Origin: Candidatus Zixiibacteriota bacterium
Lineage (GTDB): Bacteria; Zixibacteria; MSB-5A5; GN15; PGXB01
Reading direction: 5' to 3'
Assembly: GCA_016933955.1 (NCBI GenBank)
Contig: JAFGTT010000018.1
Span: 1-64,000 of the forward strand
DNA: 64,000 nt
The notes under the pieces are model-generated. The model searched no databases and was not told the origin of the DNA. It was given only the letters and a program-made list of their open reading frames with translations. Each line of letters begins with the position of its first letter. Position 1 is the stretch's first letter. Positions 4,927-45,578 of this stretch are shown here, piece after piece. The translations under genes and the position numbers were made by a program.

Positions 4927-4934
4927 GGTGGATT

Positions 4935-5559: not shown

Positions 5560-6627
5560 ATGCGGAAGGTGATAATCGTAATCAATCCCGGATCAACATC
5601 GACTAAAATGGCGTTGTTTGAAGAGAAAGCCCGGATGGTCGAGGAGGTAATCACGCATCCGGCCGATCAGCTGGCGGCTTTCGATAATGTCGCCGATCAA
5701 TTCGAGCTGCGGATGAAAAATATCGATGATTTTTTGACGGCCCAGAAGATCAATGAAAAAGAAGTTGTCGCGGTGGCCGGACGCGGGGCGCCTCTCAGAC
5801 CGCTGGATGGTGGCGTTTACCAGATCAACCGGAAGATGCTCGATGATCTCCGCGAAATGCGCTATTCCAACCATGCCTCCAATCTCGGAGCAATTATCGC
5901 CGACCATCTGGGGAAACGATACCATGTCCCGGCGGTTATTGTCGACCCGGTGACGATTGATAATTTCACCGACATTGCCCGTCTTTCAGGAATCCCGGAA
6001 ATAGAGCGGAAATGCCGGGCTCATGCTCTCAATATCAAGGAAGTCTGCCGCCGTCATTCCGAGACAATCGGGAAATCGCTCGAGCATTGCCGCTATGTGG
6101 CGGTCCATATGGGAGGAGGGATATCAATCGCGGCTCTTGATCGGGGGCGGATTGTTGATGTTAACGATGCTTTACTGGGGATGGGCCCGTATTCGCCGGA
6201 CCGGGCCGGCGCCCTGCCGATCGGGGCTCTGGTCAAACTGGCTTATTCCGGCCGTTACAGTGAAAAAGAGCTGATTACCCGATTATCACGGGAGTCGGGA
6301 TTAAAGGCATATCTCGGGGAATCGGATTTGCGCAAGGTGGAGCAGATGATCGAAAACGGTGACGACAGGGCGGCTCTTTATTTTTATGGCATGGCTTATC
6401 AAATCGCCAAGGAGATCGGGGCCTGTGCGGTGGTTCTTCGTGGGGAATTCGATGGTATTATTCTCACCGGCGGCATGGCCCGATCGGTAAAACTGGTAAA
6501 ATTATTACGGGATTATATCTCTTTTCTGGGCGAAGTCATCGTGGTTCCGGGCGAATTCGAAATGGAAGCGCTGGCGGCCGGAGCCCTGCGAGTTCTCAAT
6601 AAAACCGAAATCCCCAAAGAGTATTAA
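5560..6627 (+). CDS. buk: Butyrate kinase (acyl-phosphate kinase)
   Basis: Transfers phosphate from butyryl- or branched acyl-phosphate to ADP, the ATP-forming step of the pathway. The 355 residues equal the usual Buk length. The ASKHA-family signatures are NPGSTSTK at residues 9-16, the HMGGGIS loop near 183, and GMGPYSPDRAG near 205. The start at 5560 follows GGGGAGGG. A frame open further upstream overlaps iorB and has no better signal. It sits between iorB and ptb in one operon. Alternative names such as branched-chain fatty acid kinase would fit equally well. Confidence 0.93.
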   Translation: MRKVIIVINPGSTSTKMALFEEKARMVEEVITHPADQLAAFDNVADQFELRMKNIDDFLTAQKINEKEVVAVAGRGAPLRPLDGGVYQINRKMLDDLREMRYSNHASNLGAIIADHLGKRYHVPAVIVDPVTIDNFTDIARLSGIPEIERKCRAHALNIKEVCRRHSETIGKSLEHCRYVAVHMGGGISIAALDRGRIVDVNDALLGMGPYSPDRAGALPIGALVKLAYSGRYSEKELITRLSRESGLKAYLGESDLRKVEQMIENGDDRAALYFYGMAYQIAKEIGACAVVLRGEFDGIILTGGMARSVKLVKLLRDYISFLGEVIVVPGEFEMEALAAGALRVLNKTEIPKEY

Positions 6628-6654
6628 ACCCGGATTGACAGGAAGGGAGATGCT

Positions 6655-7614
6655 ATGGACGGTAAACCAATAACCTCTTCCGATCAAATTATCGAGTCGG
6701 CTATCAGACTGGCCCGAATAGCCGGGAAGAAAGTGGTGGCGGTCGCTGGGGCAAGCGATGTCGATGTTCTCGGAGCCCTGGCCTCGGCGCATGCCGATGG
6801 GATTCTCGAGGCGGCCCTTTTCGGCGAGAAGAATAAAATCGAAAAAGCGGCCGATGAGGGCGGGATCGATATCTCCGGTTTGGAGATCATGCCCGAAGCG
6901 GATGCCGCCGGGGCTGTATATGGGGCGGTTAAAATGGCCGCCGAGGGTCGAGCCGATATCATTATGAAGGGCTTTGTATCAACCTCGGCCCTGCTTAAAA
7001 CGGTTCTCTCCCGGGATTTCAGCCTTCGTACCAAAAACCTGGTTTCACACACTGCCGTTCTGGATATCCCCGGTTATCATAAACTGCTGTCGATGACCGA
7101 CGGGGGGATGGTGGTCCGGCCGAATTTCGATCAGAAAATTCAGATAATCGAAAACGCTGTATTGGTCGCCCGGGCGCTTGGTCTGATGCCGGTCCGGGTG
7201 GCTATATCCGGGGCATTTGACCAGGTCCGGGAGGATATGCCGTTGACGATCGAAAACAGCGAAATCAAAGCCCGGATCGAGATGGGAAATATGGAGGATG
7301 TAGTCATCCAGGGTCCGATGACATTCGATGCCGCCACATCCGCCGAGGTATGTAGAATCAAAGGTATTACCGGTCCGGTGGCCGGTCAGGCCGATATTTT
7401 CGTGGTCAACAGCATCGAGGAGTGTAATATCATTGCCAAAGCTTTGATTAATTTCGTCGAGGCGGTTTTTGCCGGAGTTATAGTCGGGGCCCGGGTGCCG
7501 ATCAGCCTGGTATCGAGGACCGATACCATCAAGAATAAAAAAGCCTCGGTGTCAATTGCCTGCCTGGTGGCGGAATACTACAAGCAGAGCGGTGTTATGG
7601 GAGGTGACCAATGA
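6655..7614 (+). CDS. ptb: Phosphate butyryl/acyl-transferase, copy 1
   Basis: Converts acyl-CoA plus phosphate to acyl-phosphate and CoA, feeding butyrate kinase. The 319 residues match the Pta/Ptb family: an N-terminal Rossmann-like part (VVAVAGASDVDVL), KGFVSTSALLK near 104, LVSHTAVLDIPGYHKL near 130, and a C-terminal SAEVCRIKGI...GQADIFVV. A GGGAG Shine-Dalgarno precedes the ATG. The stop overlaps the start of the second copy by 4 nt (ATGA), which indicates translational coupling. Confidence 0.9.
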   Translation: MDGKPITSSDQIIESAIRLARIAGKKVVAVAGASDVDVLGALASAHADGILEAALFGEKNKIEKAADEGGIDISGLEIMPEADAAGAVYGAVKMAAEGRADIIMKGFVSTSALLKTVLSRDFSLRTKNLVSHTAVLDIPGYHKLLSMTDGGMVVRPNFDQKIQIIENAVLVARALGLMPVRVAISGAFDQVREDMPLTIENSEIKARIEMGNMEDVVIQGPMTFDAATSAEVCRIKGITGPVAGQADIFVVNSIEECNIIAKALINFVEAVFAGVIVGARVPISLVSRTDTIKNKKASVSIACLVAEYYKQSGVMGGDQ

Positions 7615-8537
7615 TCAGATCCTTTGCCGAACTTGAGGACCAAGTTAAGTCCGGAAGTGATGGGAAGAAAGTCCCCCGGATGGGAATTATATATCCGCGC
7701 GGCGGGAAATGTCTCGAGGCGGCCACCGCCGCGGCCTCCGAGAAAACCGTAAAGGTCAGCCTGATTAGTCCCCGTGAGGCCATTGAGGATTGCATCGTCA
7801 GAGAGGGTTGCGACCTGTGCGGGATGGAAATAGTGAATGTTGACAGCCTTGAAGAGGCCGTCCGAACCGGTGTGAAAATGGCCCGCGCCGGGGAGCTTGA
7901 TTTTCTTTTAAAAGGTTCGGTCGGAACGAGGGAGCTTATCGATGTTCTTCTCCTTTCCGATACAGGCTTTGTGTCAGGAGGCGGGATTCTGTCGCATGTC
8001 GGAATCATGGAAACCGAGCGGTATCACAAGCTGATATTTATTACCGATGCGGCAGTCAACAACGAGCCGGATGCCAGTACTAAAATCGCCATCACGCGCA
8101 ATGCCGCCACGGTGGCCCGGAAACTGGGGGTGGAATCGCCCCGCGCGGCACTTCTGGCGGCCGTTGAAGCCATCTATCCGGCTGTCCCGGTGACGATGGA
8201 AGAAGCGGCTATAGCCAAGATGTCGGATCGGGGGCAGATTAAGGATGTCATTATCGATGGTCCGTTGTCTTTCGATGTAGCTATCAATGCCGAGGTGGCG
8301 CGATCAAAGGGTATTACCAATTCAGCAGTGACGGGCGAAACTGACATTTTTGTCGGCCCATCGATGGAAACGGCTAATGGCCTTTATAAGGCGATGGTGA
8401 TTTATGTCAGGGCCAGGGCGGCCGGTTTGATTTGGGGAGGGATAGCCCCGCTGGTAACCACTTTCGCGGCAGATCCGATCGAAAATGTGAGCAATTCAAT
8501 CAGGCTTGGAATATACCTTTCGCAAACCCGAGACTGA
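7611..8537 (+). CDS. Phosphate acyltransferase, copy 2
   Basis: A second, diverged member of the phosphate acetyl/butyryl-transferase family, 308 residues. It keeps the family landmarks KGSVGTRELID, ILSHVGIMETERYHKL and NAEVARSKGI...GETDIFVG, but differs clearly from copy 1, for example an aspartate/asparagine-rich AAVNNEPDAS where copy 1 has GGMVVRPNF. It overlaps copy 1 by 4 nt. It may have another acyl-chain preference or form a hetero-oligomer; both are inference. It is the last gene of the operon, and no clear terminator follows. Confidence 0.88.
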   Translation: MIRSFAELEDQVKSGSDGKKVPRMGIIYPRGGKCLEAATAAASEKTVKVSLISPREAIEDCIVREGCDLCGMEIVNVDSLEEAVRTGVKMARAGELDFLLKGSVGTRELIDVLLLSDTGFVSGGGILSHVGIMETERYHKLIFITDAAVNNEPDASTKIAITRNAATVARKLGVESPRAALLAAVEAIYPAVPVTMEEAAIAKMSDRGQIKDVIIDGPLSFDVAINAEVARSKGITNSAVTGETDIFVGPSMETANGLYKAMVIYVRARAAGLIWGGIAPLVTTFAADPIENVSNSIRLGIYLSQTRD

Positions 8538-14347: not shown

Positions 14348-17320
14348 TTATTGATCGGCGGGCCTTAGAATCACGGCCTGTCCATCGTGGCCGTTAATTA
14401 TGACTTCCAGGGGACGAGCCAAACGAACATGGCGTAGATTCCCGGTTTCCTGACTGACCGGCAGGGATTCCAGCCAGTTCCAGTCAATGAAATTCAATTC
14501 GTTAGTCCGGTTAACGGTTAAATACCCGATCTGAAAGGAAATCAGATTCTGGAAAAAATGGGTTCCGAATGAAGGTGTGACCGAGAAATCGCCATAAGCC
14601 GCTTCGATTATGACCCGGGCCGAGGAAATCTGGTCCCATTTGGCCGGTATTCCCAGCCACCGGTCGGCGGTACCCCATCGCCCCGGGCCAATCAGAAGGT
14701 ACGGCCGTTGACCGGCTTTCATCAATTCATTGAAGCGCCCGACCTCGACGGCCATCTCGCTCATCCGGGCCCGGTCGAAAGTGTCGGGTCGGACGTATAT
14801 AATATCCTGAATGTCATTGATGCGACCATGGCTCAAACAATCATCGCTCCGGCAAATAATCCTGTCATGATCGAGATCGGTCAGGGAGATACTCTCATGG
14901 GCGGCCTCAACGGCCATCGGGCGAATCTGAAGAAATCCGAATTCATCCGGTATTTTGGAATCGGCATGGAGTTCAGCGGCGAATTCGATCTCAACCGGGA
15001 AATTCATCCCGTTGCTCCCCAGACGGAGAAGAAACCTGATGATCTCATCGAGAGGGAAAATCCGGTTTTTCAGGATTGGGGCAAAGGTCACCAGTTTCAC
15101 CCCTTTCCGGTTAATGCCGTCGTACACCCGGTCATTTTCCCGGGAATAGGTCGAGCCGACAAATCCCATGGATCCATCCTCAACTGCCCGATCGATCTTG
15201 AACTGCATCAACCCGCTGCCGCCGTCGGGTGAAGGATGGACCGCGGGATTACTCATGTCAATGGCGAAGAAATCGTGCTGGGAGTTTTTAAAAAAGTCCT
15301 TGGTTGTCGAGAACTGCGGCAGAACCATGGGATTACTCGGTGAAAAATAAAGGCAATCGCCGCCTTCGACAATTGTTCGCCCCAGGCCAAGAGCGGCATA
15401 GGCAATACCTTCCTCCGGTTTAATATGCCCGATGGAATAGAAGTTGTATGATCGCGCAATTCCGGAAATCACCGGGTAGAAACTGCCGCGCCGGAGACTT
15501 CCAACCACCTTTTGAAGGATAACCGCCATTTTCTCTTCCTCGACCCGGTTGCCGGTAGTCTCGATATAATTCTTTGATTTTTTAAAGAAGGTCGAGGCAT
15601 AGATGTACTTAATAGCTTCCTCGAGCCGGCTAAGCCGTCCCCCCAGAGTCCGATGCCGGTTGGGGAGCATGTGAGTTTCATAAATTCCGGCGAAGGGCTG
15701 ATAGTGCGAATCCTCCAGAAGTGATGACGACCTGACCGCGAGTGGATATTTAATCACCTCGAGGATGGCCTTCAGGTCATCCGAGGTTTCTTTGGGGAGC
15801 TTACCGTTGACAAAGGCGGCAGCGATTTCATCATCGGAGTGATCGCCCAGGGCGAATTTAAGCAGGTTGTTTTTTTCGAGAAATTTGTCGAAGACCGAGG
15901 TTCCGACAATAAATGAAGGGGGGACGGTTATCCTGACTCCCTCGAAAATATCATAGACATTGTATCGCCGCAGAAGACGGTTGATAAAAGCCAGACCCCG
16001 CCCTTTACCTCCCAGTGAACCGTTACCGATTTTGACGAAATCGGTCTGGAGATCGAATTGGCGGCGGGAGAAATCAGAAACCATTCCCAGTTGTTTTTCA
16101 TGGCGGAAAGTCCGGAAAGTATCCATGAGGTATTGTCTCATGCTGGCGATATCGTTAAATTCCGTGACTTTTCTGGGGCGCAGGCGAACGGCCAGGTCGA
16201 ATTCCGTCCGGGCCATCAGCCAGTTGGAAAAATGATTGCGGTTACCGTGATGAATCAGCGACTCCTCCGGAACGGTTTCGAGGCACCGTTCCATTTCGTG
16301 ATAATTTTCGGCCCGGTCCACCTCGGTCCCGTCGGTCAGTCTGAAAACAAAATCGCCGAATCCGAAATTTAGCATGATAAAATTACGCAAGTCGGTTAAC
16401 AGAGTCCGGGCATTCTTATAAAGAAAAGCCACCTTTTTTTCGCGGGCCATCTCGGCGTACTTTCGATTGGATGACTGCAACAGGATAGGCAGATCGGGGA
16501 TTTCTTTTTTAATGGCCTCGGCCAGTTTCAGCCCGGCCTCTTTGTCCATGATATCGTTTCGAAAAAAGCTGACATCGGAGATAATTCCCAGGAGAAACTG
16601 ACGATATTTTTTAAACAACTGCCAGCCTTCTTCGAATGTTTCGGCCAGCAGGATTTTCGGCCGCGCTCTCATGCGCAGTAATTTATCGGGCTTATTCAGG
16701 CTCTCCGACATCAGGGCCTGGGTTTGTTCGACGATTTCGGTGTAGATTAACGGCAGATAGGCAGAATAAAACCGGACCGAATCCTCGATCAGGATAATAA
16801 CCCGGACTCCGACCAACCGGGTGTCGTTGTCGACATTTTTTCTATCTTCAACGAATTTGGCAATTGCCAGAAGGATATCGGACTCGCCGTTCCAGATGAA
16901 AGCTTTATCGATGGCGCGTTCGTAATTGGGATCCTGCCTGATAGCCAGTTCACGGGGATTGAAGGCCAGCAGAACGATCGGGATATCAGGGTCGATTTCC
17001 TTGGCCCTGAGACCGAAAGAGATGATATTGATGTCACTCAGCTTACGGAAGACCATGATCAGGTCGAACTTTTTTTGTTCCAGGAGCCGGAGCGCTTCCT
17101 CGCCGCTCGAAACCCGTTTGATCTGCGGAGCAAAAGTGAGATTATGTTCGGCGTATTCACTCGAAATCAGCTGGGCGATCTGGCCGTCTTCTTCGAGAAT
17201 GAATGAATCGTAAAGACTGGAGACCAGGAGAATATCCTTGACCCGGTACTGCATCAAAGAATCGAATCGGGCGAATCCCGATTCGTAGTCCTTGGGATCT
17301 ATGACAGGTTTCCGGATCAT
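14348..17320 (-). CDS. Receiver-like plus PPDK/PEP-synthase ATP-grasp domain protein
   Basis: A 990-residue cytosolic protein. The N-terminus holds two response-regulator-like folds: about residues 25-160 (ILLVSSLYDSF...SGEEALRLLEQKKFDLIMV) and about 170-320 (RVIILIEDSVRFYSAYL...LLGIISDVSF). The centre is the ATP-binding half of pyruvate phosphate dikinase/PEP synthase, with GGKGRGLA near 438 and RSSSLLEDS near 530. The phosphohistidine swivel and the PEP-binding barrel of true PEP synthase are absent, so it is not a complete PpsA. It may phosphorylate or bind another partner in response to a signal. No strong Shine-Dalgarno is visible; ATG at 17320 is preferred to the TTG three codons earlier. 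It appears monocistronic. Confidence 0.8.
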   Translation of the reverse strand: MIRKPVIDPKDYESGFARFDSLMQYRVKDILLVSSLYDSFILEEDGQIAQLISSEYAEHNLTFAPQIKRVSSGEEALRLLEQKKFDLIMVFRKLSDINIISFGLRAKEIDPDIPIVLLAFNPRELAIRQDPNYERAIDKAFIWNGESDILLAIAKFVEDRKNVDNDTRLVGVRVIILIEDSVRFYSAYLPLIYTEIVEQTQALMSESLNKPDKLLRMRARPKILLAETFEEGWQLFKKYRQFLLGIISDVSFFRNDIMDKEAGLKLAEAIKKEIPDLPILLQSSNRKYAEMAREKKVAFLYKNARTLLTDLRNFIMLNFGFGDFVFRLTDGTEVDRAENYHEMERCLETVPEESLIHHGNRNHFSNWLMARTEFDLAVRLRPRKVTEFNDIASMRQYLMDTFRTFRHEKQLGMVSDFSRRQFDLQTDFVKIGNGSLGGKGRGLAFINRLLRRYNVYDIFEGVRITVPPSFIVGTSVFDKFLEKNNLLKFALGDHSDDEIAAAFVNGKLPKETSDDLKAILEVIKYPLAVRSSSLLEDSHYQPFAGIYETHMLPNRHRTLGGRLSRLEEAIKYIYASTFFKKSKNYIETTGNRVEEEKMAVILQKVVGSLRRGSFYPVISGIARSYNFYSIGHIKPEEGIAYAALGLGRTIVEGGDCLYFSPSNPMVLPQFSTTKDFFKNSQHDFFAIDMSNPAVHPSPDGGSGLMQFKIDRAVEDGSMGFVGSTYSRENDRVYDGINRKGVKLVTFAPILKNRIFPLDEIIRFLLRLGSNGMNFPVEIEFAAELHADSKIPDEFGFLQIRPMAVEAAHESISLTDLDHDRIICRSDDCLSHGRINDIQDIIYVRPDTFDRARMSEMAVEVGRFNELMKAGQRPYLLIGPGRWGTADRWLGIPAKWDQISSARVIIEAAYGDFSVTPSFGTHFFQNLISFQIGYLTVNRTNELNFIDWNWLESLPVSQETGNLRHVRLARPLEVIINGHDGQAVILRPADQ

Positions 17321-17393
17321 ATGAAACAACTACGATAGATCGGCCGATTCCCATGATGAAATCAGGATATTGGGAATTACTCTCCGATCGGTG

Positions 17394-17434
17394 AAAAAAG
17401 ACATGGTGGGACAGCCGGGCTGTCCCACCATGTC
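17394..17434 (-). terminator. Terminator of gdhA
   Basis: A perfect 16-bp stem (17400-17415 with 17419-17434) with a 3-nt loop, followed on the minus strand by six T residues. It lies 34 nt past the gdhA stop. Confidence 0.85.
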
Positions 17435-17467
17435 GGGAAATTATCTATAACTGGTTTAGAAAGTATC

Positions 17468-18907
<1,440 letters not shown>

Positions 18908-35337: not shown

Positions 35338-36927
35338 TTAATCGGCATCGAGGATACTGACCGCCTCGGCCCTGTCAACATCCATAACGTAGGTAATCCC
35401 GCTTCTTTCGGCGGCCTCTTTGGTAAGAGCGCAGAGATCGTCGCGGGTCATATGTTCCAGCGAGAATTTCCGGGCTCCGGCCATCAACTGGCGAAGACCC
35501 TGGGCCAGGCGTTCATAGTAGGTATAAAGACCGATCGCACCGGCCGGGATTTTCGCGAATTCATTGTTACCCAGTTCATGACGAAGATCGGCGGCGGTGA
35601 CGAAAATCTCGTCGATGGTGCTTCCGAACCGTTCCACGTAAACCGGGAGTTGATGGGCATTGATAGCATTGCCGATGGTTTTGCCGACCATGGCGGCGGC
35701 AATCGGCGAACGCGCCATACCGATCATTTTTACGAACGGAGCGCCCAGGGCGAGGCCCTTGAAAATCTGATCCTCGAACGTGAACCCACCGGCCAGAACC
35801 AGCGGCGGGACATATTCGCCACGGTCGTGGAGCCTTTTGGTATATTCGTAAAGCATCGAGTGAAGTTCCACTGGCGGGATACCCCATTCATTCATCATGC
35901 GCCACGGGCTCATTCCGGTTCCGCCCCCGGCACCGTCCACGGTGAGCAGGTCGATGTTGTATTTCGAGGCGAACTTTATGGCCCGGGCCAGATCCGAGGG
36001 ACGGTACGCGCCGGTTTTCAGGAAAACATACTTGGCGCCGGCGGCCCGAAGTTCACCCACCCGCTGGGCAAAAGATTCCTCGGTCACCATGCCGACCCGG
36101 GAGTGACGCTCGAACTCCTTAAAAGCGCCATTCTCAAAGGCCTGAATGACTTCGGGATTGGTCGGATTGGGCAGGACCACATAGCCGCGCTGATAAAGCA
36201 GTTGGGCTTTTTTGAGGTCCTTGATCTTGACTTCGCCGCCGATATTTTTGGCGCCCTGGCCCCATTTTAATTCGACACAATGGACACCCAATTTCTCGAT
36301 GGCGTATTCCTGGGTACCCAGGCGGGTATCCTCGATATTGGCCTGAACGATAGTGGCCCCGTAGCCGTCGCGCTGATGATCCTGGTACAATTTAACCCGG
36401 CGTTTAAGATCGACCGTATCGATTACGCGGCCGTTGCCGTTGAATTTTGATTCCGGGTCCATACCGACGACATTCTCGCCGATTGTCAGACCGGTTCCTG
36501 CCAGGGCGGACCCGATGGCCAGACCTTCCCAGTTATTTTTGGCCACATCGGTTGATCCGATTCCGGGGATGATCCAGGGTAAACGGAATTTGACGCCCTT
36601 ATCGTGCCCGATCATAACCTCAAGCTTGACATTGGGGAAAATGGCCTTATCGCTGTCCTCTTCGATACCATGAGCGCCGACGGCGGTTCCCATGATATTG
36701 AAATGAGAATAATCAACCGGGTAATTTTTCTCCCCGGCGGTAGTGATAACGCCGAATGGCTGGGGGTAGATAACTTCATGACCGCGATAGGCCGATTTAC
36801 CGATTTCACACATCCCGATACACCCGTCCACGCAGGTAACACACATGCCGGAATTGGGGACAACCGAATCCTCGGTTCTGTTTTTGGTCAGGGTTGCCGC
36901 CGAAGCATTCACACGCGTAAATGACAT
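35338..36927 (-). CDS. FMN-binding glutamate synthase domain protein
   Basis: A 529-residue protein holding the FMN/3Fe-4S synthase barrel of GltB without the glutaminase or central domains, as in short GltB-like proteins. Visible landmarks are LTVDGAGGGTGMSPW, LVLAGGFTFEDQIFKGLALGA and PIAAAMVGKTIGNAINAH. An unusual N-terminal cysteine set GMCVTCVDGCIGMCE (about 27-41) could bind a cluster and pass electrons. The start follows GAGGAG. It ends an operon with NuoE-, NuoF-GltD- and NuoG-like iron-sulfur genes, so it may take electrons from NAD(P)H or ferredoxin. True glutamate synthase activity is uncertain, because no ammonia-donating domain is present. Confidence 0.85.
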   Translation of the reverse strand: MSFTRVNASAATLTKNRTEDSVVPNSGMCVTCVDGCIGMCEIGKSAYRGHEVIYPQPFGVITTAGEKNYPVDYSHFNIMGTAVGAHGIEEDSDKAIFPNVKLEVMIGHDKGVKFRLPWIIPGIGSTDVAKNNWEGLAIGSALAGTGLTIGENVVGMDPESKFNGNGRVIDTVDLKRRVKLYQDHQRDGYGATIVQANIEDTRLGTQEYAIEKLGVHCVELKWGQGAKNIGGEVKIKDLKKAQLLYQRGYVVLPNPTNPEVIQAFENGAFKEFERHSRVGMVTEESFAQRVGELRAAGAKYVFLKTGAYRPSDLARAIKFASKYNIDLLTVDGAGGGTGMSPWRMMNEWGIPPVELHSMLYEYTKRLHDRGEYVPPLVLAGGFTFEDQIFKGLALGAPFVKMIGMARSPIAAAMVGKTIGNAINAHQLPVYVERFGSTIDEIFVTAADLRHELGNNEFAKIPAGAIGLYTYYERLAQGLRQLMAGARKFSLEHMTRDDLCALTKEAAERSGITYVMDVDRAEAVSILDAD

Positions 36928-36962
36928 TGCTTTTTCTCCTCTATACTTTGGCTCTTTTATTT

Positions 36963-37640
36963 TCAATCTTTTCTTATTTCACAAGCGACACACGGTTTCA
37001 TATAGCACATCATGTCGTCAAATTTCTCTTTTTCCAGGCAAGGCGGGGCCAGGTTAGCGCAACCGCCGCAAATGGCTTTTTCCGGTTCGGTGAAGGTGCA
37101 CCGGAGTTCGCAGGCCGGGCAGACATAGATACATCCACCGCACAACCGGCAGACATCGGATTTGATGTCGAACGGCGTTCCCAGGGAACGGTTTTCCCCG
37201 CGACCCCGGAAGCCGATGGCACCGGCCATCATTTGTTCCTGACACATCCTCACGCATCGCCCGCAAAGGATGCAATCCTCATACTCCTGGCGAAAACGCT
37301 GTTGTTTGATTGCGTGGGCCGAGGCCAGATCCTGAATGGTCTTGGACTGCGGGCAGGAGGCCAGCAGAAGTTCCAGAATCATCCGGCGGGCTTTAACAAC
37401 GCGCGTCGATGCGGTTCGGACCTTAAGACCCTCCTGGGCCGGATAAGTACATGATGTCACCAGCCGCGAGTTGGGCGGATCACCTATTTCCACCACGCAG
37501 AGGCGGCAGGCACCGTAGGGCGTCAATCCTTCCATATGGCAGAGAGTCGGAATAGGGAAACCCAGAAACTGGGCCGCCTCGAGCAGGGTGGTGCCCTCTT
37601 CGACGGCGAGCTTGACTCCGTTTATGGTTAAATTAATCAT
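36963..37640 (-). CDS. [2Fe-2S]/[4Fe-4S] iron-sulfur protein, NuoG-N/HydA-N-like
   Basis: A 225-residue electron-transfer subunit. The N-terminus is a plant-type [2Fe-2S] ferredoxin (LCHMEG...GACRLC...TSC, Cys near 34, 45, 48 and 64). Then come two [4Fe-4S] motif sets, CILCGRCVRMC near 123 and CRLCGGCIYVC near 163, and an extra cysteine-rich tail CGGCA...PPC...CYMKPCVAC. This matches the N-terminal half of NuoG or the HydA iron-sulfur region but lacks a molybdopterin or H-cluster domain. Its ATG overlaps the stop of the NuoF-GltD gene by 4 nt, so it is a coupled subunit. Confidence 0.87.
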   Translation of the reverse strand: MINLTINGVKLAVEEGTTLLEAAQFLGFPIPTLCHMEGLTPYGACRLCVVEIGDPPNSRLVTSCTYPAQEGLKVRTASTRVVKARRMILELLLASCPQSKTIQDLASAHAIKQQRFRQEYEDCILCGRCVRMCQEQMMAGAIGFRGRGENRSLGTPFDIKSDVCRLCGGCIYVCPACELRCTFTEPEKAICGGCANLAPPCLEKEKFDDMMCYMKPCVACEIRKD

Positions 37641-40600
37641 ACTGTTTTACCTCCTGAGACCACCGCCGCTGCCTCCTTTTCGTTTTTTACCGCGCGGGTG
37701 AATTCCAGATCACAACGCAGGCATCGACAGGCTTCGCGCCGGGCTTCGCCCGTCGAAAGGGATTCCTCGACCTCGGCGAAATTGCGTTTCCGCCACTCAA
37801 CCGAAGCGCGCGGAGTTTCCGCCCGTTTCATTTGCTGTATTTCTTCAGGTTCTATTTTGACCGGTTCGACGTAGACACGGGGAAGATTGGGCCGATGGGC
37901 CTGTTTCAGTTCTTGACCTTTCAGGTACCGCTCGATCATGATAGCCGCCCGTTTTCCGGCCGCGATAGAATCGACCACGGTGTTCGGGCCGGTGACCACA
38001 TCGCCGGCGGCGAACACCCCGGGGCGGTTGGTCAGAAGCGTTTCCCGGTCAACCTTGACAGTGTCCCATTCGGTTGTTTCAATACCGCTGGAGTGCGCCG
38101 GGGCGATACAATCGGTTCCGGAATCCTCGCCGATAGCCACCACCAGAGTGTCCAGATCAACGCTGAATTCCGAGCCTTCGACCGGAAGCGGCCGCCGCCG
38201 GCCGCTGCTGTCAAGATCGCCCAGCCGATTGCGGAGGCAGACCAGCGAGGCCACGTGACCGTTTTTCTTGACAATCCGAACCGGCGTGACCAGAGTCTCG
38301 ATTTTGATTCCTTCCTGTTCGGCCGCTTCGATTTCCTCTTCGAAGGACGGCATTTCATTCCGGGTCCGGCGATAGAAAATCGTCACGCCGGAAACCTCTT
38401 TCTGGCGAAGAGCCATGCGGGCGGCATCGAAAGCGGAGTTCCCGCCGCCGATAATCCCGACCCGGCCTTTGGCTTTCTGTTGATTTTTCAAATTGAATGA
38501 TTTCAGGAATTCTATCGAGGGATAAACTCCTTCGGCATCCTCGTTCTCGATTTTTAGAGGCTTACTCTTGTGAGCTCCCATAGCCAGAAGGACTGCCTTG
38601 AAACCATCTTTGAATAAGCCATCCACGGTGAGTTTGGCACCAAGCGGCCGGTTGCAGATAACCTCGATATTGTCGTCCAGAAGAGAATCGATCTCTTTCT
38701 GGATAGTCTCGCGGGGAAGCCTGTAAGCCGGGATGGCGCAGGTTAACATGCCGCCGGGACAATCCTCGGCTTCGAACACGGTCACCCTGCAACCGCGAAG
38801 CGACAGATAGTGGGCCGTTGTCAGCCCCGCCGGTCCGGAACCGATGATAGCTACCCGTGGCGGTTCACCGTCGGTCCATACCTCGCGGATCGGGATATAG
38901 GTCGAAGGCTCGATCCGGTCGGTGATAAAACGTTTTAGCGAGCGAATGGCAATCGGATCGCCTCCCGAAGTCCCCGCTTTGCATCGCGACTCGCACGGAT
39001 GATGACAGACGCGGGCGCAAACTGACGGGAAGGGGTTGGCTTCGCGGATAACCGTGTAGGCCTTTTCATATTCACCTCCGGCGATATAAGCCACATAGCG
39101 CCAGGCCTCTGTTCCCAAGGGACAGGCCGACTGGCACGGAGCGCCGACCAGGTCATGACAGACGAAGGCCGAACACTTTTTCTCCCTGATATGCTCCTCA
39201 TATTCATGGCGGAAATATTTAAGGGTGCTGAGGACCGGGTTGGCCGCCGATTGACCCAGGCCGCACATGGAAGTATCCCGGACGACCACCGCCAGTTCCT
39301 CGAGCAGATCAAGATGTTCCATAGTGGCCACCCCGCGCGTGATATCATCGAGAATCTCGTACATCCGTTGCGTGCCCTTGCGGCAGGTGTAACATTTGCC
39401 GCAGGATTCATCTTTCAGGAAGCCCATGAAATATTTGGCGACATCAACCATGCAGGTATTATCATCCATGACAATCATGCCGCCGGAGCCCATAATCGAA
39501 CCGGCCCTGGCCAGATTATCATAGTCGATCGGCAGATCGAACATGCGGGCGGGGATACAGCCGCCGGAGGGGCCGCCGGTCTGAACGGCCTTTATTTTGC
39601 CGCCCCCGGAGGCGCCGCCGCCGATATCATAAACCACTTCGCCGATGGTAATTCCCAGAGGGACCTCGACCAGACCGGTATTCCTGATTTTTCCGACCAG
39701 CGAGAAAATCTTGGTCCCGGTATTGCCCGGAACACCCACTTTGGCGTACTCGGCCGCGCCCTTGTTAATGACATCGGGGATATTGGCCAGCGTTTCAACA
39801 TTGTTGATACAGGTTGGATGTCCCCAGAGACCTTTGGCGATCGGGTAGGGTGGCCGCTGGCGGGGTTCACCCATATGCCCTTCAATAGATCGAATCAGGG
39901 CCGTTTCCTCGCCGCAGACAAAAGCCCCGGCGCCACGGAAAATCTTGATATCGAACTTGATTCCGCATCCGAGGACATTGTCTCCAAGCAGGCCCATTTC
40001 CCGGGCCTGTCGTAGCCCGATCAGGCAATGCTTGATGGCCAGCGGGTATTCGCTGCGGACATAAATGTAACCCTTGGTGGCCCCAATGGCCAGGGCCGCG
40101 ATAATCATACCCTCAATTATGGCATGAGGATTTCCCTCGAGAACAGCCCGATCCATATAGGCCCCGGGATCGCCCTCATCGGCATTACAGATAATGTATT
40201 TTTCTTCGCCTTTGCGGCCGGAAGCCCGGGCAAACTGCCATTTCCTCCCGGTCGGGAAACCGGCTCCGCCGCGGCCTCTCAAACCCGAAGCGATCACCTC
40301 ATTGACGACCCATTCGGGATCATTCTTTAGGATTACTTTTTCAAGGGCTTTATAGCCGCCGTTTTCGATATAATCGAAAATCCGGATAGGATCGATTTTT
40401 TCATTTTTGCCAAGAATATTCCGGGTTTGCCGTCGGAAAAAAGGAATATCCTGTTTCTTTTCAATCGCTGTTCCGTTGACATCCCTATAAATCACTGCCT
40501 GAGCGACATAACCGCCCAGCGCGGCATCGATAACTTTGGGGATATCTTCCATTTTCAGTTTGGGATAGAAATGGCCGTAGGGTTCGACCACGATATAGGG

Positions 40601-40831
40601 ATTCATTTCACAGAAGCCGTGACATCCGGTTATTTTCAGATTAATCCGTTCTCTGAGGCTTCTTTCCAGGATATATCTTTTTACAATTCGGATAATATCA
40701 TTGACTCCGCTGGCCTGGGCCCCGGTATCGGCACTGATAACCAAGGTCGGTTTAACCTCTTGGATTTCATTATCGCTGATAATGCGGCGGCGGAAATCAA
40801 TCAATTCCTGAACCGTTTTTAGTTTTCTCAT
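37637..40831 (-). CDS. NuoF/HydB-like and GltD/NfnB-like fusion flavoprotein
   Basis: A 1064-residue fusion. Residues 1-125 form a thioredoxin-like domain with CHGFC (Cys70, Cys74), but the first Cys pair of the [2Fe-2S] site is Ser33/Ala38. Residues about 150-560 are NuoF/HydB: GRGGAGFPTG, NADEGDPGAYMDR, CGEETALIRS and the [4Fe-4S] ESCGKCYTC...C, binding FMN and NADH. From about 575 it continues as GltD: CQSACPLG, CARVCHHPCESRC, FAD loop GSGPAGLTTAHYL, and NADPH loop GGGNSAFDAAR. NADH and NADPH sites on one chain suggest bifurcation or transhydrogenation with ferredoxin. GGAG precedes the ATG. Which electron routes operate is inference. Confidence 0.92.
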   Translation of the reverse strand: MRKLKTVQELIDFRRRIISDNEIQEVKPTLVISADTGAQASGVNDIIRIVKRYILERSLRERINLKITGCHGFCEMNPYIVVEPYGHFYPKLKMEDIPKVIDAALGGYVAQAVIYRDVNGTAIEKKQDIPFFRRQTRNILGKNEKIDPIRIFDYIENGGYKALEKVILKNDPEWVVNEVIASGLRGRGGAGFPTGRKWQFARASGRKGEEKYIICNADEGDPGAYMDRAVLEGNPHAIIEGMIIAALAIGATKGYIYVRSEYPLAIKHCLIGLRQAREMGLLGDNVLGCGIKFDIKIFRGAGAFVCGEETALIRSIEGHMGEPRQRPPYPIAKGLWGHPTCINNVETLANIPDVINKGAAEYAKVGVPGNTGTKIFSLVGKIRNTGLVEVPLGITIGEVVYDIGGGASGGGKIKAVQTGGPSGGCIPARMFDLPIDYDNLARAGSIMGSGGMIVMDDNTCMVDVAKYFMGFLKDESCGKCYTCRKGTQRMYEILDDITRGVATMEHLDLLEELAVVVRDTSMCGLGQSAANPVLSTLKYFRHEYEEHIREKKCSAFVCHDLVGAPCQSACPLGTEAWRYVAYIAGGEYEKAYTVIREANPFPSVCARVCHHPCESRCKAGTSGGDPIAIRSLKRFITDRIEPSTYIPIREVWTDGEPPRVAIIGSGPAGLTTAHYLSLRGCRVTVFEAEDCPGGMLTCAIPAYRLPRETIQKEIDSLLDDNIEVICNRPLGAKLTVDGLFKDGFKAVLLAMGAHKSKPLKIENEDAEGVYPSIEFLKSFNLKNQQKAKGRVGIIGGGNSAFDAARMALRQKEVSGVTIFYRRTRNEMPSFEEEIEAAEQEGIKIETLVTPVRIVKKNGHVASLVCLRNRLGDLDSSGRRRPLPVEGSEFSVDLDTLVVAIGEDSGTDCIAPAHSSGIETTEWDTVKVDRETLLTNRPGVFAAGDVVTGPNTVVDSIAAGKRAAIMIERYLKGQELKQAHRPNLPRVYVEPVKIEPEEIQQMKRAETPRASVEWRKRNFAEVEESLSTGEARREACRCLRCDLEFTRAVKNEKEAAAVVSGGKTV

Positions 40832-40859
40832 TTGTCATTACTCCTCATATCTCACCGCA

Positions 40860-41711
40860 TTATTCGATTCCGGCGCCGCGCAGGTCAAGCATATGACCAT
40901 GGCACCCGCGCCGCGAACAAATTTGCACCACCCCGCCGCCGCGGACAATCATTGGGACCATCGGCGCTCCGCATTCGCCGCACCGGGCGCCGCCGGTCAA
41001 TTCCGCATGGCAATGGGGGCAGAACATTTGAACGATGGTGTCGGGGGGAATCTCGAATTCGGCTTCGACATTATAACTGCCGTAGACGCTCGACAGGGCC
41101 AGTCGGCCATGATTATTGCCGAATGAAATGGTTACCCGGATTGGAGGGTGACCGTCAATCCGATGCCTGGGATCAAGCAGGCTATGGTTACAATGGGCAC
41201 AGCTGACATCGAGCGGGAAGACCCGTTCATCGGTCTCGACCTCGATTCGGTCCAATCCCCGACGGGCTTTATCCAGAATGCCTTTGACCATTGAGGTTTT
41301 GACATTGGAGAAATAATGTCCATCGACTACGACCACCGGCCCGATGGCACAGGCACCCAGGCAGTTGACGGTTTCGAAGGTGAATTCACGATCGTCGGTA
41401 GTCTGACCGGCTCTGATACCCAGTTGATTTTCGATTTCACGGGCGATAGAGGGACCGCCCCGAACATGGCAGGCCGTTCCCAGGCAGGCCGAGATCAAAT
41501 GTTTACCGCGCGGCTTCAGGCTGAAAGCCTTATAAAAAGTAGCCACTCCGTAAATATCGACCAGGGACCGCCTGGTTTTCAGCGACACCTCTCTCAGCGC
41601 TTCCTCGGGAAGATAGCCGTATTTCGACTGTATATCACCCAGAATGGCGATAATACCCTCCCTTTCGTTTTCATGTTTTTTCAGGATACCCGAAATTTCG
41701 ACATGATCCAT
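40860..41711 (-). CDS. NuoE-like [2Fe-2S] subunit with C-terminal zinc-ribbon-like extension
   Basis: A 283-residue subunit. Residues 1-150 are the NuoE/HydC family: helical N-terminus, then the [2Fe-2S] ligands Cys76-x4-Cys81 and Cys117-x3-Cys121. After about 160 a non-standard region of 120 residues carries CAHC, CPHC, CGEC and a CSRRGC set resembling zinc ribbons; ordinary NuoE proteins stop near residue 160. The start MDHVEI at 41711 follows GGAAGG; another ATG ten codons earlier is possible. It is the first large gene of the operon, 28 nt before the NuoF-GltD gene. Confidence 0.87.
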   Translation of the reverse strand: MDHVEISGILKKHENEREGIIAILGDIQSKYGYLPEEALREVSLKTRRSLVDIYGVATFYKAFSLKPRGKHLISACLGTACHVRGGPSIAREIENQLGIRAGQTTDDREFTFETVNCLGACAIGPVVVVDGHYFSNVKTSMVKGILDKARRGLDRIEVETDERVFPLDVSCAHCNHSLLDPRHRIDGHPPIRVTISFGNNHGRLALSSVYGSYNVEAEFEIPPDTIVQMFCPHCHAELTGGARCGECGAPMVPMIVRGGGVVQICSRRGCHGHMLDLRGAGIE

Positions 41712-41767
41712 ATGGCTTAACCTTCCGTACAGTTGAATCATCTATACATTGACAAAATGGTTTGAAA

Positions 41768-41968
41768 TCAGCGGTAATACTCACAATGCCAGACTCCATC
41801 ATCGGGCCTGGGCCGGGTGCAGGTATCTCGAATGGCACAACTGACACAGAGCCCCTTGAATGGTTTTTGTGGTGAATGATTGTTGTTTGAGGATTTGGCT
41901 GTGTTTTGGGAATGACCGCGATGGCCATCATTCTTTTGATCTGGCGATGAAGATTTATCGTCAATCAT
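41768..41968 (-). CDS. Small cysteine-motif protein
   Basis: A 66-residue protein with a low-complexity polar N-terminus and a conserved-looking end: KGLCVSCAIRDTC...DDGVWHCEYY, with cysteines at 41, 44, 50 and 62. Four such ligands can hold zinc or an iron-sulfur cluster. I recall similar short proteins (CVNCENRDTC...GGVWHCEEY) next to Nuo/Hyd-like genes, but cannot check it here. It lies 56 nt before the NuoE-like gene on the same strand and is probably the first gene of that operon. The start is uncertain: ATG 41968 or GTG 41983; no clear ribosome-binding site. Confidence 0.7.
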   Translation of the reverse strand: MIDDKSSSPDQKNDGHRGHSQNTAKSSNNNHSPQKPFKGLCVSCAIRDTCTRPRPDDGVWHCEYYR

Positions 41969-42195
41969 GACATGGCACGGCACAAAACTCTAAATTGCGT
42001 GACCGGTGAAATCAGGGAGAATTTCTTACTTGAATTTGTTTGTACCGGAAGACTCTGGAATAAAATTAGCTTGACAGATTCTTTCCGGCGGCGCTTCTTA
42101 ATTACAAAGCGCTTTTAAACGAGAGACTCGACCTGTTCTCCCTCCATCAAGAATAGCAAGGAGTTTAAATGGGGAAGAAAAGGCTGGTCCCTCCT

Positions 42196-42211
42196 TTAAA
42201 AGCGCTTTTAA
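42196..42211. promoter_or_regulatory. 16-bp palindrome of LacI/CcpA operator type
   Basis: TTAAAAGCGCTTTTAA is a perfect palindrome with the central AAGCGCTT typical of LacI-family operators. A second partial copy, AAAGCGCTTTTAA, starts at 42106, 93 nt away. Two sites at this distance could loop DNA. No LacI-type gene is in the window. Confidence 0.45.
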
Positions 42212-42442
42212 TTAAGATAAATCTCCCTGATTACCTGTTTAATATTTGACCAATTATATAACAATAAGCGTGCCAAACATTTGATATATACCAGGGATGT
42301 TTTTTGCTGTTTCCCGCCCGTTGTACAGCGCGTTTATTTTATTGATAGACAATAGATTATAATGATTGAATGAAAAATACTGCGTATTTCTCGAAATGCT
42401 ACCGGTAAAACCGGCCTCATATATCTGAGGATAATCGTCCCG

Positions 42443-42469: not shown

Positions 42470-43816
42470 TCAGGAGGGTTTGTCTTTGAATCCCTCCAAT
42501 TTTTTGCGGAGTGTCTTGCGATCGATCCCCAATATTTCGGCGGCCCTGGTTTTATTGCCATCAACTCCGGCCAGGACATTATGGATGTATTCGGCTTCAA
42601 TCTCTGCCAGAGATCGATCAAGCCCCGCCTCGCGGATAATGGAGAATCGCATCAAGGCCGGCAGGTCGGGGACATTGATAACATCATCATCGGTCATAAC
42701 CACCAGCCGCTGGATAACGTTCTCCAGTTCGCGAACATTGCCGGGCCAGTAGTAGTTTTTCAGAATATCCAGTGTTTCATCGGAAAATCTGGGGGTTGGT
42801 TTGCCGAATTCCTCGGCGAATTTGCGGGTGAAGTGATTGATCAGGAGAAAAATATCATCACCCCGCTCACGTAATGGGGGCACCGCGATAGTGATAACAC
42901 TGAGACGAAAAAACAGATCTTCACGGAAGGAACCTTTGTTGACAAGGTTGCGAAGGTCTTTATTGGTGGCGGCCAGAATCCGGACATCGACTTTTCTGGT
43001 TCGGCTGGCCCCAACCATGCAGACCTCCTTATCCTGTAATACCCGAAGCAGTTTAACCTGCATCGGCAGGCCGGTCTCGCTGATTTCGTCAAAAAAGATG
43101 GTGCCGCCTTCGGCGGTCTGAAAATACCCGGCGCGCGATTCAGTGGCCCCGGTAAAGGCCCCTTTGACATAACCGAATAGCTCGCTTTCCAGAAGACCCT
43201 CAGGAATACCACCGCAATTAACCGGCACCATGGGAGCCGAAGCCCGGGGACTGCTGTAATGAATAGCCCTGGCCACCAGTTCCTTTCCGGTTCCGCTTTC
43301 CCCGGTAATTAAAACCGTGGCCGAGGTCATAGCCGCTTTGGCAATCGACCGGAAAACATCCTGAAGAATCGGCGATTCCCCAATAATACCATAGCGGGAG
43401 CCGGATTTGGCGGTGGTCCTTGACCGGGCAATGCGCTGGGCTTTGAGTTTATCGAGAACCCGCCGCACCGCCGTGAATAATTCCTCGTCCGTAAACGGTT
43501 TGGGCAGGTATTCCTCGGCTCCGCTTTTAACCGCCTTGACTGCTCCGGTGACCGTGGCATGGCCGGTAATCATCATCACCTCGGTATCGCGAATATTTTC
43601 ACGGACATGCCGTATAAGATCAAGGCCGCTGACTTTCGGCATTTTCAGGTCGGTGATAACCAGATCGACCGGGGTGCCTTTTAAAAACTGGATGGCCTCC
43701 ATGACCCCTGTGGCGGTAAATACCTGGTAACCCTGCGATGACAGGTTTCGCTGAAGAATTTCGAGAGTATCCACAGCATCGTCGACCACCAGAATTGATG
43801 GTTTATCTTTAGTCAT
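42470..43816 (-). CDS. Sigma-54-dependent response regulator, NtrC/AtoC type
   Basis: Activates sigma-54 promoters after phosphorylation. The 448 residues comprise a receiver domain with phosphorylated Asp56 (ITDLKMP), an AAA+ domain with Walker A GESGTGKE, the sigma-54 contact loop GAFTGA and Walker B GGTIFFDEI, and a Fis-type HTH (TRAAEILGIDRKTLRKKL) at the C-terminus. The start at 43816 overlaps the kinase stop by 8 nt and has GGAG upstream, so the pair is co-translated. No perfect -24/-12 site is visible in the window for its target. Confidence 0.95.
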   Translation of the reverse strand: MTKDKPSILVVDDAVDTLEILQRNLSSQGYQVFTATGVMEAIQFLKGTPVDLVITDLKMPKVSGLDLIRHVRENIRDTEVMMITGHATVTGAVKAVKSGAEEYLPKPFTDEELFTAVRRVLDKLKAQRIARSRTTAKSGSRYGIIGESPILQDVFRSIAKAAMTSATVLITGESGTGKELVARAIHYSSPRASAPMVPVNCGGIPEGLLESELFGYVKGAFTGATESRAGYFQTAEGGTIFFDEISETGLPMQVKLLRVLQDKEVCMVGASRTRKVDVRILAATNKDLRNLVNKGSFREDLFFRLSVITIAVPPLRERGDDIFLLINHFTRKFAEEFGKPTPRFSDETLDILKNYYWPGNVRELENVIQRLVVMTDDDVINVPDLPALMRFSIIREAGLDRSLAEIEAEYIHNVLAGVDGNKTRAAEILGIDRKTLRKKLEGFKDKPS

Positions 43817-45578
43817 GCTCGATTTCTCCATTACCGGTAAAATGGTTGCCGTTAACCAGCGGCAGACAGACCTCGAAACGGGCTCCCTTTCCCGGCTCGC
43901 TATCGACCCCGATAGAGCCTCCGTGGCCCACCACTATTCCCTGAACCACCGCCAGCCCCAATCCGGTTCCCTCGTTGATATCCTTGGTGGTGTAAAAGGG
44001 CAGGAAAATTTTATCAATAACCTTTTTGTCGATACCGTGACCGGTATCGGCAACTATCAATAGTGCCTGGTCATCTTTAAGATCGGTTTCGATGGTCAGA
44101 TTACCGCCCCGGGGCATGGCTTGGATGGCATTGACGACCAGGTTAACCAAAACCTGGGATATCTGCCCGGCATCGGCCCGAATATCCGGCAAATCCGAGT
44201 AATATATCTGAGTCAGGATAATTCCGGCTTTAGCGCAACGGGATTCCAGAAGAAACAGGCTGTCTTTGATAATCCGATTGAGGTTGGTCGATTCTTTTTG
44301 AGCCGGAGCCTGTCGGGCAAATAGCATCAATTTTTTGACAATCTCGCGGGCATGGAGTGAGGCCGCCTCGATTTTTTCCAAATCCTGACCCACCTGGGCA
44401 GGTGTTTCCGGGTCCTTTCTGGCCAGCTGGGCGAATCCCAGGATACTGCCCAGCGGCTCGTTCAGCTCATGGGCCACTCCGGCCGCCAGTTGGCCAATGG
44501 TTGCCAGCCGGTCGGCATGCCGCAACTGCTCCTGGAGATTGATCTTATCTTCCTCGGCCTGGCGCCGTTCGATAATCATGGCGATTTCGGCGGCGACAGC
44601 ATCGATCAAGTCCCGTTCTTCGCGAAGAAACGCTCCTTCATCAAGTTCGGGCATGATTTTGACATAACCCACTTCGACCCGGCCGCGGCGAACTTCAAGG
44701 GAAATGATATCGGCACCGATTTTCTGAACACAACGGTCGAAACTGATGGTGGCATAACGGCGTCCATCCAGTTCGATCTGGGCCGCCGCTATTTCCGGAT
44801 GAAGCCAGCCCGGCGGCAGGAGTTGAACGCCTTCCCTTAGAATATCGTCAATCGATCGGTCCGGATTGGCCGCGGCCCGGGCAATCCGGTACAGGCAGGT
44901 CAGTTCCTTGACCCGTTCGCGCAGGGCGACCCGGGTACTCCGGTAGCTTATAGTCATCCCGAGGATGTGACTGATTTCCTCATAGGCTTCGACCAGTTCG
45001 TAAGTAAAATAATCGATTGGCCGCGCTTTTAAGATCAACAATCCCTTTTTGCCATCATCAGTTTCAAAGGGCATCAACGCTGTCGATTGAAAACCGGGAA
45101 AGAGTTCGCTTTTTATTTCAATCGAATCTTGTCCCCTGACGGGAATTCTGATACTTTCTCCCGCGAAATTAATACACAGACTTCCCTTATTGGCAACCAG
45201 CGGGGGAGATGGCACCAAGGAAATATCCGCCGCTTTCTGACAGATTATTTCAGTCGTATGGTCGCCGGTCAAACAGGGCAGACAAACTCTGTCGGCCGTT
45301 TTCAGGCAGGGGCGCGTCTCCAGATGAAAGGTCTCATCGATATTCCGGCCGCATATACAATGCAACATATCATTGTTCTGCCCCAGCCTAATTTCCAGCT
45401 CATCGCACTCCGAAAAATTAACCAGCAGAGAAGCTATTTTTCTCATAAAATCGGAACGGCGTAGTCTGCGATCGGCCAGCTGGAGAATCTGGTGTGAGAG
45501 GAAAATAAAATCCTTGGCCGATCTGGCTGATGGTCTGTTCCGGACTATTTCCGGCGGCCGGCTTTTTCGAGAAAACAT
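43809..45578 (-). CDS. Soluble GAF-domain sensor histidine kinase
   Basis: The 589-residue kinase has no transmembrane segment, so it senses a cytosolic signal. The N-terminal half contains one or two GAF-like regions; residues 74-113 hold six cysteines (74, 76, 91, 99, 102, 113) in a CxC...C...CxxC pattern that could bind metal or a redox cluster. The dimerisation/phosphoacceptor box GVAHELNEPLGS has His370. The ATPase domain has NLVVNAIQA, DTGHGI and GTGLGL. It is the partner of the overlapping response regulator. The DASS transporter and CBS gene upstream on the same strand may be linked targets. Confidence 0.9.
   Translation of the reverse strand: MFSRKSRPPEIVRNRPSARSAKDFIFLSHQILQLADRRLRRSDFMRKIASLLVNFSECDELEIRLGQNNDMLHCICGRNIDETFHLETRPCLKTADRVCLPCLTGDHTTEIICQKAADISLVPSPPLVANKGSLCINFAGESIRIPVRGQDSIEIKSELFPGFQSTALMPFETDDGKKGLLILKARPIDYFTYELVEAYEEISHILGMTISYRSTRVALRERVKELTCLYRIARAAANPDRSIDDILREGVQLLPPGWLHPEIAAAQIELDGRRYATISFDRCVQKIGADIISLEVRRGRVEVGYVKIMPELDEGAFLREERDLIDAVAAEIAMIIERRQAEEDKINLQEQLRHADRLATIGQLAAGVAHELNEPLGSILGFAQLARKDPETPAQVGQDLEKIEAASLHAREIVKKLMLFARQAPAQKESTNLNRIIKDSLFLLESRCAKAGIILTQIYYSDLPDIRADAGQISQVLVNLVVNAIQAMPRGGNLTIETDLKDDQALLIVADTGHGIDKKVIDKIFLPFYTTKDINEGTGLGLAVVQGIVVGHGGSIGVDSEPGKGARFEVCLPLVNGNHFTGNGEIEHD

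Follow-up and report, generated by a model that had tools for sequence, protein, structure and literature searches.

The window analysed here is a stretch of 64,000 nucleotides from Candidatus Zixiibacteriota (contig 18; the genome measures 3.38 Mb). Five minus-strand genes at 35338-41968 encode a 66-residue cysteine protein (gene 1), a NuoE/HydC-like subunit (gene 2), a NuoF/HydB-GltD fusion (gene 3), a HydA-N-like iron-sulfur subunit (gene 4), and a GltB-type flavin mononucleotide (FMN) barrel (gene 5). This five-gene set is a conserved unit across anaerobic bacteria of many phyla. We propose, tentatively and at somewhat less than an even chance, that it forms a soluble three-port complex similar to the Bfu and Stn enzymes, which couples NAD(H), NADP(H) or ferredoxin, and glutamate/2-oxoglutarate plus ammonium. 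The proposal is built on the gene set, the domains, the conservation of ligands, a module swap, and the neighbouring genes, all observed directly; from these we infer assembly, electron route, substrate, coupling, and direction. In the open-access papers that were searched (subscription papers, preprints, and supplements lay outside the search), a NuoF-GltD fusion accompanied by a GltB-type subunit was nowhere described, and within that literature the architecture appears to be new.

A conserved set of five genes

A first-pass annotation had already placed five tightly packed genes with these parts at these positions, and the open reading frames (ORFs), the Pfam domains, and the recurrent gene order bear it out. 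Genes 3 and 4 overlap by four bases. For comparison, 94 loci from many phyla were fetched, each of which contains gene 5. Gene 4 was present in 93 of these, gene 3 in 91, and gene 2 in 80, and the gene order was kept. Missing partner genes were mostly explained by contig ends, and the single locus lacking gene 4 lies at a contig edge. Using tblastn, homologues with the cysteine motif of gene 1 were detected in 55 of the 94 loci, in most of them directly upstream of gene 2. The same order is seen in dozens of loci spread widely over the phylogeny, far beyond what chance would give.

A scan of a species collection yielded at least 587 matching stretches, with Candidatus Zixiibacteriota as the main source of the closest named relatives. 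The 80 stretches that were kept came from Zixibacteria, Planctomycetota, Ignavibacteriota, Calditrichota, Latescibacterota, KSB1, Bacteroidota, Acidobacteriota, Myxococcota, Thermodesulfobacteriota, Spirochaetota, and others. In the window's own phylum, gene 5 is present in 60 of 133 genomes (nearly all full-length matches are 71-85% identical), and chains matching the fusion over both halves occur in genomes with gene 5, save for one contig break. The annotation had named fusions scattered without their partners as evidence against a complex; neither the 94 loci nor the genomes of the phylum contained them, the exceptions being assembly breaks. Two candidate exceptions were rejected: in G095 the contig stops shortly past the fusion, and in G025 a scaffold gap (a run of N) lies within gene 3, the ends of which overlap. 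Selenocysteine or readthrough was also rejected for gene 3 orthologues listed with an in-frame TGA, as the aligned region contains no internal stop.

The domain of gene 2 is a thioredoxin-like [2Fe-2S] domain, and the best PDB chains in a phmmer search were HydC subunits of bifurcating hydrogenases. The [2Fe-2S] cysteines and eight additional cysteines are each conserved in at least 90% of the sequences; the latter form a zinc-ribbon-like extension (40860-41230, minus strand) that is kept across phyla. The best solved relative of gene 4 is 9mqx_A (3.3e-37). All 21 of its cysteines are conserved in at least 90% of 91 sequences, eight of them within a C-terminal extension, and the predicted inventory is one [2Fe-2S] cluster, two [4Fe-4S] clusters, and this 8-Cys extension.

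The NuoF chain and its two forms

The NuoF chain of gene 3 continues as GltD in 61 loci (long form, as in the window) and as a HydB-type 2x[4Fe-4S] ferredoxin domain in 19 loci (short form, mostly 616 residues). Genes 2, 4, and 5 belong to the same families beside both forms. On a tree of the NuoF module, the distribution of the two forms required 11 changes, with at least six of them forced by well-supported branches; a tree of genes 4 and 5 gave 10 changes, at least five of them forced in this way. The genomes G115 (long) and G117 (short) of one family are sisters at 100/93, and G080, a member of the window's own family, carries the short form. This pattern is most simply read as the repeated replacement of one module for carrier docking by another. 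Because the modules alternate at the same site, with the same partners, and with the His/Cys ligands of the B2 cluster kept in both forms, GltD would occupy the place at which ferredoxin docks. Ferredoxin is therefore probably not a substrate of the window's form and is likely a partner only of the short form, which keeps the ferredoxin domain. The annotation's expectation of a ferredoxin/NADH/NADPH enzyme thus held for the NADH and NADPH sites and probably fails for ferredoxin in the window.

In gene 3, the Pfam families PF01512 (8.5e-45) and PF10589 (3.3e-33) were detected, as was PF10531 (SLBB, 2.6e-4), the latter below its curated cut-off. The cysteines of the B1 cluster are C477, C480, C483, and C523. 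For the A. mobile NiFe-Bfu enzyme, the published B2 ligands are C438, C/T476, H525, C531, and C536, and the B2 cluster has been proposed for Bfu-type bifurcation (PMC9304861). A phmmer alignment with 7t2r_B placed these ligands at C460, T498, H547, C553, and C558 of gene 3. Across 79 sequences drawn from both forms, C460, H547, C553, and C558 never vary (79 of 79), whereas the variable position 498 is occupied by Thr, Ser, or Cys, with two Ala. In the GltD module of the long form, C566, C570, C609, C613, C617, C1037, and C1040 are invariant and C605 is nearly so. They would form two [4Fe-4S] sites (C566, C570, C1037, C1040; and C605, C609, C613, C617); as in StnC, the CxxC of the first cluster lies at the module's C-terminus. 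The nearest solved chains of this module are 9bov_A, 9n5u_A, and 8oh5_C, followed by NfnB, and the NfnB-type YRRT motif is conserved, as expected for NADP(H).

An AlphaFold2 model of gene 3 had a predicted local distance difference test score (pLDDT) of 86.6 and a predicted template modelling score (pTM) of 0.83. With Foldseek, the N-terminal half best matched 9mqx_B, from a tungsten aldehyde oxidoreductase, followed by T. kivui HydB, the B subunits of the Caldicellulosiruptor and T. sibiricus Nfn-ABC enzymes, and T. maritima HydB; the C-terminal half matched the GltD part of StnC-type subunits and NfnB. By alignment and predicted fold, the closest relatives of the NuoF module are HydB subunits from enzymes proven to bifurcate.

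The family definition of Bfu requires a BfuB with a Nuo51 FMN domain, an SLBB domain, an NADH_4Fe-4S domain, and a ferredoxin-type 4Fe-4S domain (IPR017896, clusters B3/B4) (Schut et al. 2022, PMC9304861). The window's long form has the first three domains and the B2 ligands, and lacks the C-terminal ferredoxin domain and a four-Cys B5 cluster; with the ferredoxin domain replaced, it is not a strict Bfu member. The short form agrees with the domain definition: BfuB of the loci L076 and L048 contains all four domains, with SLBB just under the cut-off, next to a BfuA-type gene 4 (Fer2_4 and Fer4_7) and an aligned, BfuC-type homologue of gene 2. A GltB-type catalytic subunit is not mentioned for the Bfu family in that paper (PMC9304861).

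The Stn/Nfn-Bfu enzymes (StnABC of Sporomusa ovata; NfnABC of Thermococcus sibiricus and Caldicellulosiruptor) share the NuoE-like and NuoF-like core, the use of NAD(H) and NADP(H), the C-terminal position of the first-cluster CxxC of GltD, and an incomplete N-terminal [2Fe-2S] site in the NuoF subunit (StnB). However, in Stn, GltD lies inside the BfuA/StnC chain, fused to NuoG, and StnB keeps its B3/B4 ferredoxin domain, whereas here GltD replaces that domain on BfuB, gene 4 has neither GltD nor an FdhF-like part, and a GltB-type FMN subunit is added. With GltD on another chain, the window's form is not an Stn enzyme. No NfnA-like partner (flavin adenine dinucleotide (FAD), [2Fe-2S]) was noticed among genes 1-5, for which no systematic search was made. 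The Wor-Bfu tungsten aldehyde oxidoreductase (Type 2 Bfu; PDB 9mqx) likewise has a BfuABC core, a short BfuA, and an extra catalytic subunit feeding the core, but that subunit is a tungstopterin enzyme rather than a GltB-type FMN barrel, and the BfuB-GltD fusion sets the window's form further apart. The bifurcating [FeFe]-hydrogenase HydABC shares the HydB- and HydC-like core with the B1 and B2 ligands and the N-terminal part of HydA, whereas the H-cluster domain is absent here and the window's form lacks the B3/B4 ferredoxin domain. The NADPH-dependent glutamate synthase GltBD combines a GltD-type FAD/NADPH module with an FMN barrel homologous to gene 5; in contrast, the present set has no glutaminase (GATase) domain and no [3Fe-4S] motif, GltD is fused to NuoF, and an NADH/NuoEF core lies in between. 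Overall, support was gained for the annotation's proposal that an undescribed soluble relative of HydBC and Nfn combines sites for NADH and NADPH with an FMN subunit of GltB type.

Gene 5, a possible glutamate link and the proposed coupling

PF01645 was the only Pfam match of gene 5; FMN_dh, IMPDH, and DHO_dh were not matched. In a local hhalign comparison with the FMN domain of GltB, the probability was 98.6 (E 5.3e-16, 338 columns). Gene 5 keeps the GltB barrel positions E151, Q224, K227, K304, and GGTG-SP, and the Glu, Gln, and Lys positions are invariant. Identity was 72-84% in 40 aligned sequences from many phyla. At the three positions that hhalign aligned with the [3Fe-4S] motif CxxxxxCxxxxC of glutamate synthase (GOGAT), cysteine is absent from gene 5, which has an invariant CxxCxxxCxxxC of its own near the N-terminus (C29, C32, C36, C40). 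An AlphaFold2 model (pLDDT 74.5, pTM 0.79) was recognized by Foldseek as an FMN-type TIM barrel. The top fold matches raised the possibility of an alpha-hydroxyacid oxidase. An SNHGxRQ-type His/Arg motif is the mark of these oxidases; it is lacking in gene 5, as is an FMN_dh match, and this assignment is disfavoured.

The genomic neighbourhood adds independent support for a link to glutamate. In about 12 of 84 loci, which represent roughly eight phyla, a glutamate dehydrogenase (GDH) gene adjoins the operon on one side or the other, and these genes are of two distinct types. A Pfam scan of 80 neighbouring proteins returned GDH most often (10), followed by PPDK_N (8) and Lon (3), so that GDH is the most frequent metabolic neighbour; the chance expectation, from about 2.4 GDH per genome, is well under one among the 80. 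Glutaminase was not among the commonest neighbour families, nor is it contained in gene 5, which consists of the FMN domain only, as annotated. Glutamine is therefore an unlikely substrate, and of the annotation's suggestion of glutamate or another substrate of the FMN domain, glutamate was strengthened and glutamine was not. The window's genome has no strong canonical GltB match. A missing GOGAT was rejected as an explanation, since canonical GltB2 is patchy in genomes with and without gene 5, with no clear anti-correlation.

In the proposed mechanism, genes 1-5 would encode one soluble iron-sulfur/flavin complex with three ports around an FMN core, which may bifurcate electrons. NAD(H) would react at the FMN of the NuoF module (port 1). 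A second carrier would be served by the C-terminal module of the same chain via the C1 (gene 2) and B2 clusters (port 2); the end point of this route would be the FAD/NADP(H) site of GltD in the window and ferredoxin in members with the short form. A third substrate would react at the FMN of gene 5, which B1, the gene 4 clusters, and the Cys4 site near the N-terminus of gene 5 would connect to the core (port 3). The most likely third reaction would be 2-oxoglutarate + NH4+ + 2e- <-> glutamate, without glutaminase, and an example of the coupling would be 2 NADH + NADP+ + 2-oxoglutarate + NH4+ -> 2 NAD+ + NADPH + glutamate, with the reverse during amino-acid fermentation. The potential of the 2-oxoglutarate/glutamate pair is about -120 mV. 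Together with physiological potentials of -280 mV for NADH, -380 mV for NADPH, and -500 mV for ferredoxin (PMC9304861), this makes the example reaction exergonic: glutamate formation from NADH would release enough energy to lift a second electron pair to NADP+. The version with ferredoxin would be reversible, as its energy balance is close to zero. That this is a widespread energy-coupling glutamate enzyme, with a Bfu-type core, a second port swapped between ferredoxin and NADP(H), and a third port for ammonium-dependent glutamate formation or oxidation, is possible, and we would sooner doubt it than assert it.

Several observations weigh against glutamate coupling by such a complex. GDH adjoins the operon in a minority of loci, and the genome contains three GDH-type genes, which leaves the need for a second glutamate enzyme unexplained. 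The link between gene 5 and GltB is remote (48 bits; 22% identity with hhalign), its nearest solved folds are alpha-hydroxyacid oxidases and isopentenyl diphosphate (IPP) isomerase II, and, since its profile found no GltS match among PDB sequences, the relation is drawn from Pfam and hhalign. The window's gene 3 carries Fer4_20 and Pyr_redox_2 instead of the C-terminal ferredoxin domain (B3/B4) of HydB, and its N-terminal [2Fe-2S] site (B5) retains two of four cysteines, as in most members (two to four across the long form). In favour of coupling, two of the four cysteines are also replaced in StnB, from an enzyme shown to bifurcate (PMC7483475). The complex is predicted from its genes, of which the products of genes 3 and 5 were modelled as single chains, and contact between subunits as well as activity are predictions from sequence.

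The same three-port coupling complex might instead use gene 5 on another 2-oxo, imino, or unsaturated acid, or on a carrier protein. We consider this unlikely, if still a serious contender: the recurrent GDH neighbours, the match to PF01645 rather than to FMN_dh, IMPDH, or DHO_dh, and the invariant residues at the Glu, Gln, and Lys positions of GltB argue against it, whereas the remoteness of GltB, the lost [3Fe-4S] motif, the gained Cys4 site, the generic FMN barrels among the fold neighbours, and the lack of a glutaminase family among the commonest neighbour families fit it. A non-bifurcating oxidoreductase, in which NADH and NADPH (or ferredoxin) independently feed the FMN barrel as in an ordinary NAD(P)H-glutamate synthase, is rather improbable. 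A high-potential third substrate would make coupling thermodynamically unnecessary, the long form has lost B3/B4 and has an incomplete B5, and the FAD of GltD does not bifurcate in Stn (PMC10482914). However, clusters B2-B5 are missing from NuoF homologues that do not bifurcate (PMC9304861), whereas here every sequence of either form retains the His/Cys ligands of B2. In addition, a second carrier module was kept through repeated swaps, which suggests that both carriers are needed together. Separate enzymes that share only their transcript, namely a transhydrogenase resembling BfuABC and an independent FMN enzyme, are very improbable, for although the single-chain models give no direct evidence of contact, gene 5 accompanies gene 4 in all loci but the one at a contig edge, and the 8-Cys extension of gene 4 (superfluous for a plain BfuA) and the Cys4 site of gene 5 look like parts of a connecting wire.

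If coupling by the three-port complex is correct, the complex would add a new architecture and a new class of third substrate, GltB-type FMN chemistry, to flavin-based electron bifurcation. It would also place the glutamate metabolism of many uncultured anaerobes at a site of energy coupling, where electron transfer between NADH and either NADPH or ferredoxin would power it or be powered by it. The exchange of a ferredoxin for a GltD/NADPH module at one port, with the partners kept, represents a natural experiment. Because the two forms predict the same behaviour of the core with different carriers, the roles proposed for the B2 cluster and the C-terminal arm in Bfu bifurcation would be directly testable.

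Regulators and neighbouring genes

Table 1. Features of the five-gene operon and its surroundings in the window
Feature	Position	Strand	Remarks
Gene 1, 66-residue four-Cys protein (GLCVSCAIRDTC...GVWHCEYYR)	41768..41968	-	ATG 41968, stop 41770-41768
Gene 2, NuoE/HydC/BfuC-like [2Fe-2S] subunit with C-terminal 8-Cys zinc-ribbon-like region	40860..41741	-	PF01257 1.9e-45
Gene 3, 1064-residue NuoF/HydB/BfuB-GltD fusion	37637..40831	-	Complex1_51K, NADH_4Fe-4S, Fer4_20, Pyr_redox_2 on one chain
NuoF/BfuB module of gene 3, residues 1-560	39154..40831	-	NAD(H)/FMN site, B1 and B2 ligands
GltD module of gene 3, residues 561-1064	37640..39153	-	two predicted [4Fe-4S] sites, FAD and NADP(H) Rossmann folds
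Gene 4, HydA-N/NuoG-N/BfuA-like Fe-S subunit, 225 residues	36963..37640	-	Fer2_4, Fer4_7
Gene 5, GltB-type FMN barrel, 529 residues	35338..36927	-	probable ATG 36927; PF01645 (Glu_synthase) 1.3e-12
Sigma-54 -24/-12 promoter-like site TGGCACGCTTATTGT	42261..42275	-	upstream of operon
NtrC-type sigma-54 response regulator	42470..43831	-	PF00158 6e-68; not an enzyme part
Partner sensor histidine kinase	43809..45578	-	PF00512, PF02518
NADP-type GDH	17468-18862	-	next to 993-residue protein (region 14348-18862)
Indolepyruvate:ferredoxin oxidoreductase alpha, butyrate kinase, phosphotransbutyrylase (phosphate butyryltransferase) genes	3142-8537	+	

Gene 1, which is shorter than the minimum of the ORF list, is possibly an accessory or metal-binding protein. 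It belongs to a family of small proteins with the pattern GLC-x2-C-x5-C...HCEEYR upstream of gene 2 (41768-41968, minus strand; L045:3993-4343). The protein is sometimes doubled, and the doubled version in L045 had no Pfam match.

In 47 of 84 loci the response regulator, its kinase, or both lie close to the operon, in most cases directly upstream, and the pair accompanies the operon in different phyla. A -24/-12 pattern was present upstream in 19 of 77 loci, compared with 0.7% of random windows. The leader that separates gene 1 from the sigma-54 site contains two oppositely oriented palindromes of the AAAAGCGCTTT type (42090-42220, minus strand), which are possible operators or a stem-loop; an Rfam search of the leader returned nothing meaningful.

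The GDH gene of the window and the genes at 3142-8537 fit amino-acid fermentation. The 993-residue protein beside this GDH resembles the phosphoenolpyruvate (PEP) synthase-like neighbours of the complex in other genomes, where a PPDK_N gene lies beside the operon in about ten loci (e.g., L037:2637-4835, L061:10890-13643, and L063:12407-13855). The N-terminal segment ELTCLY...PPGW of the kinase had no Pfam match, and several of the PPDK_N neighbours start with a similar CLY...PPGW segment, which suggests a shared signal. Lastly, contig 15 of genome G000 (174471-177518; L138) encodes a second, canonical BfuB of 617 residues together with a 258-residue BfuA and a small Fe-S protein, which probably constitute another Bfu enzyme.

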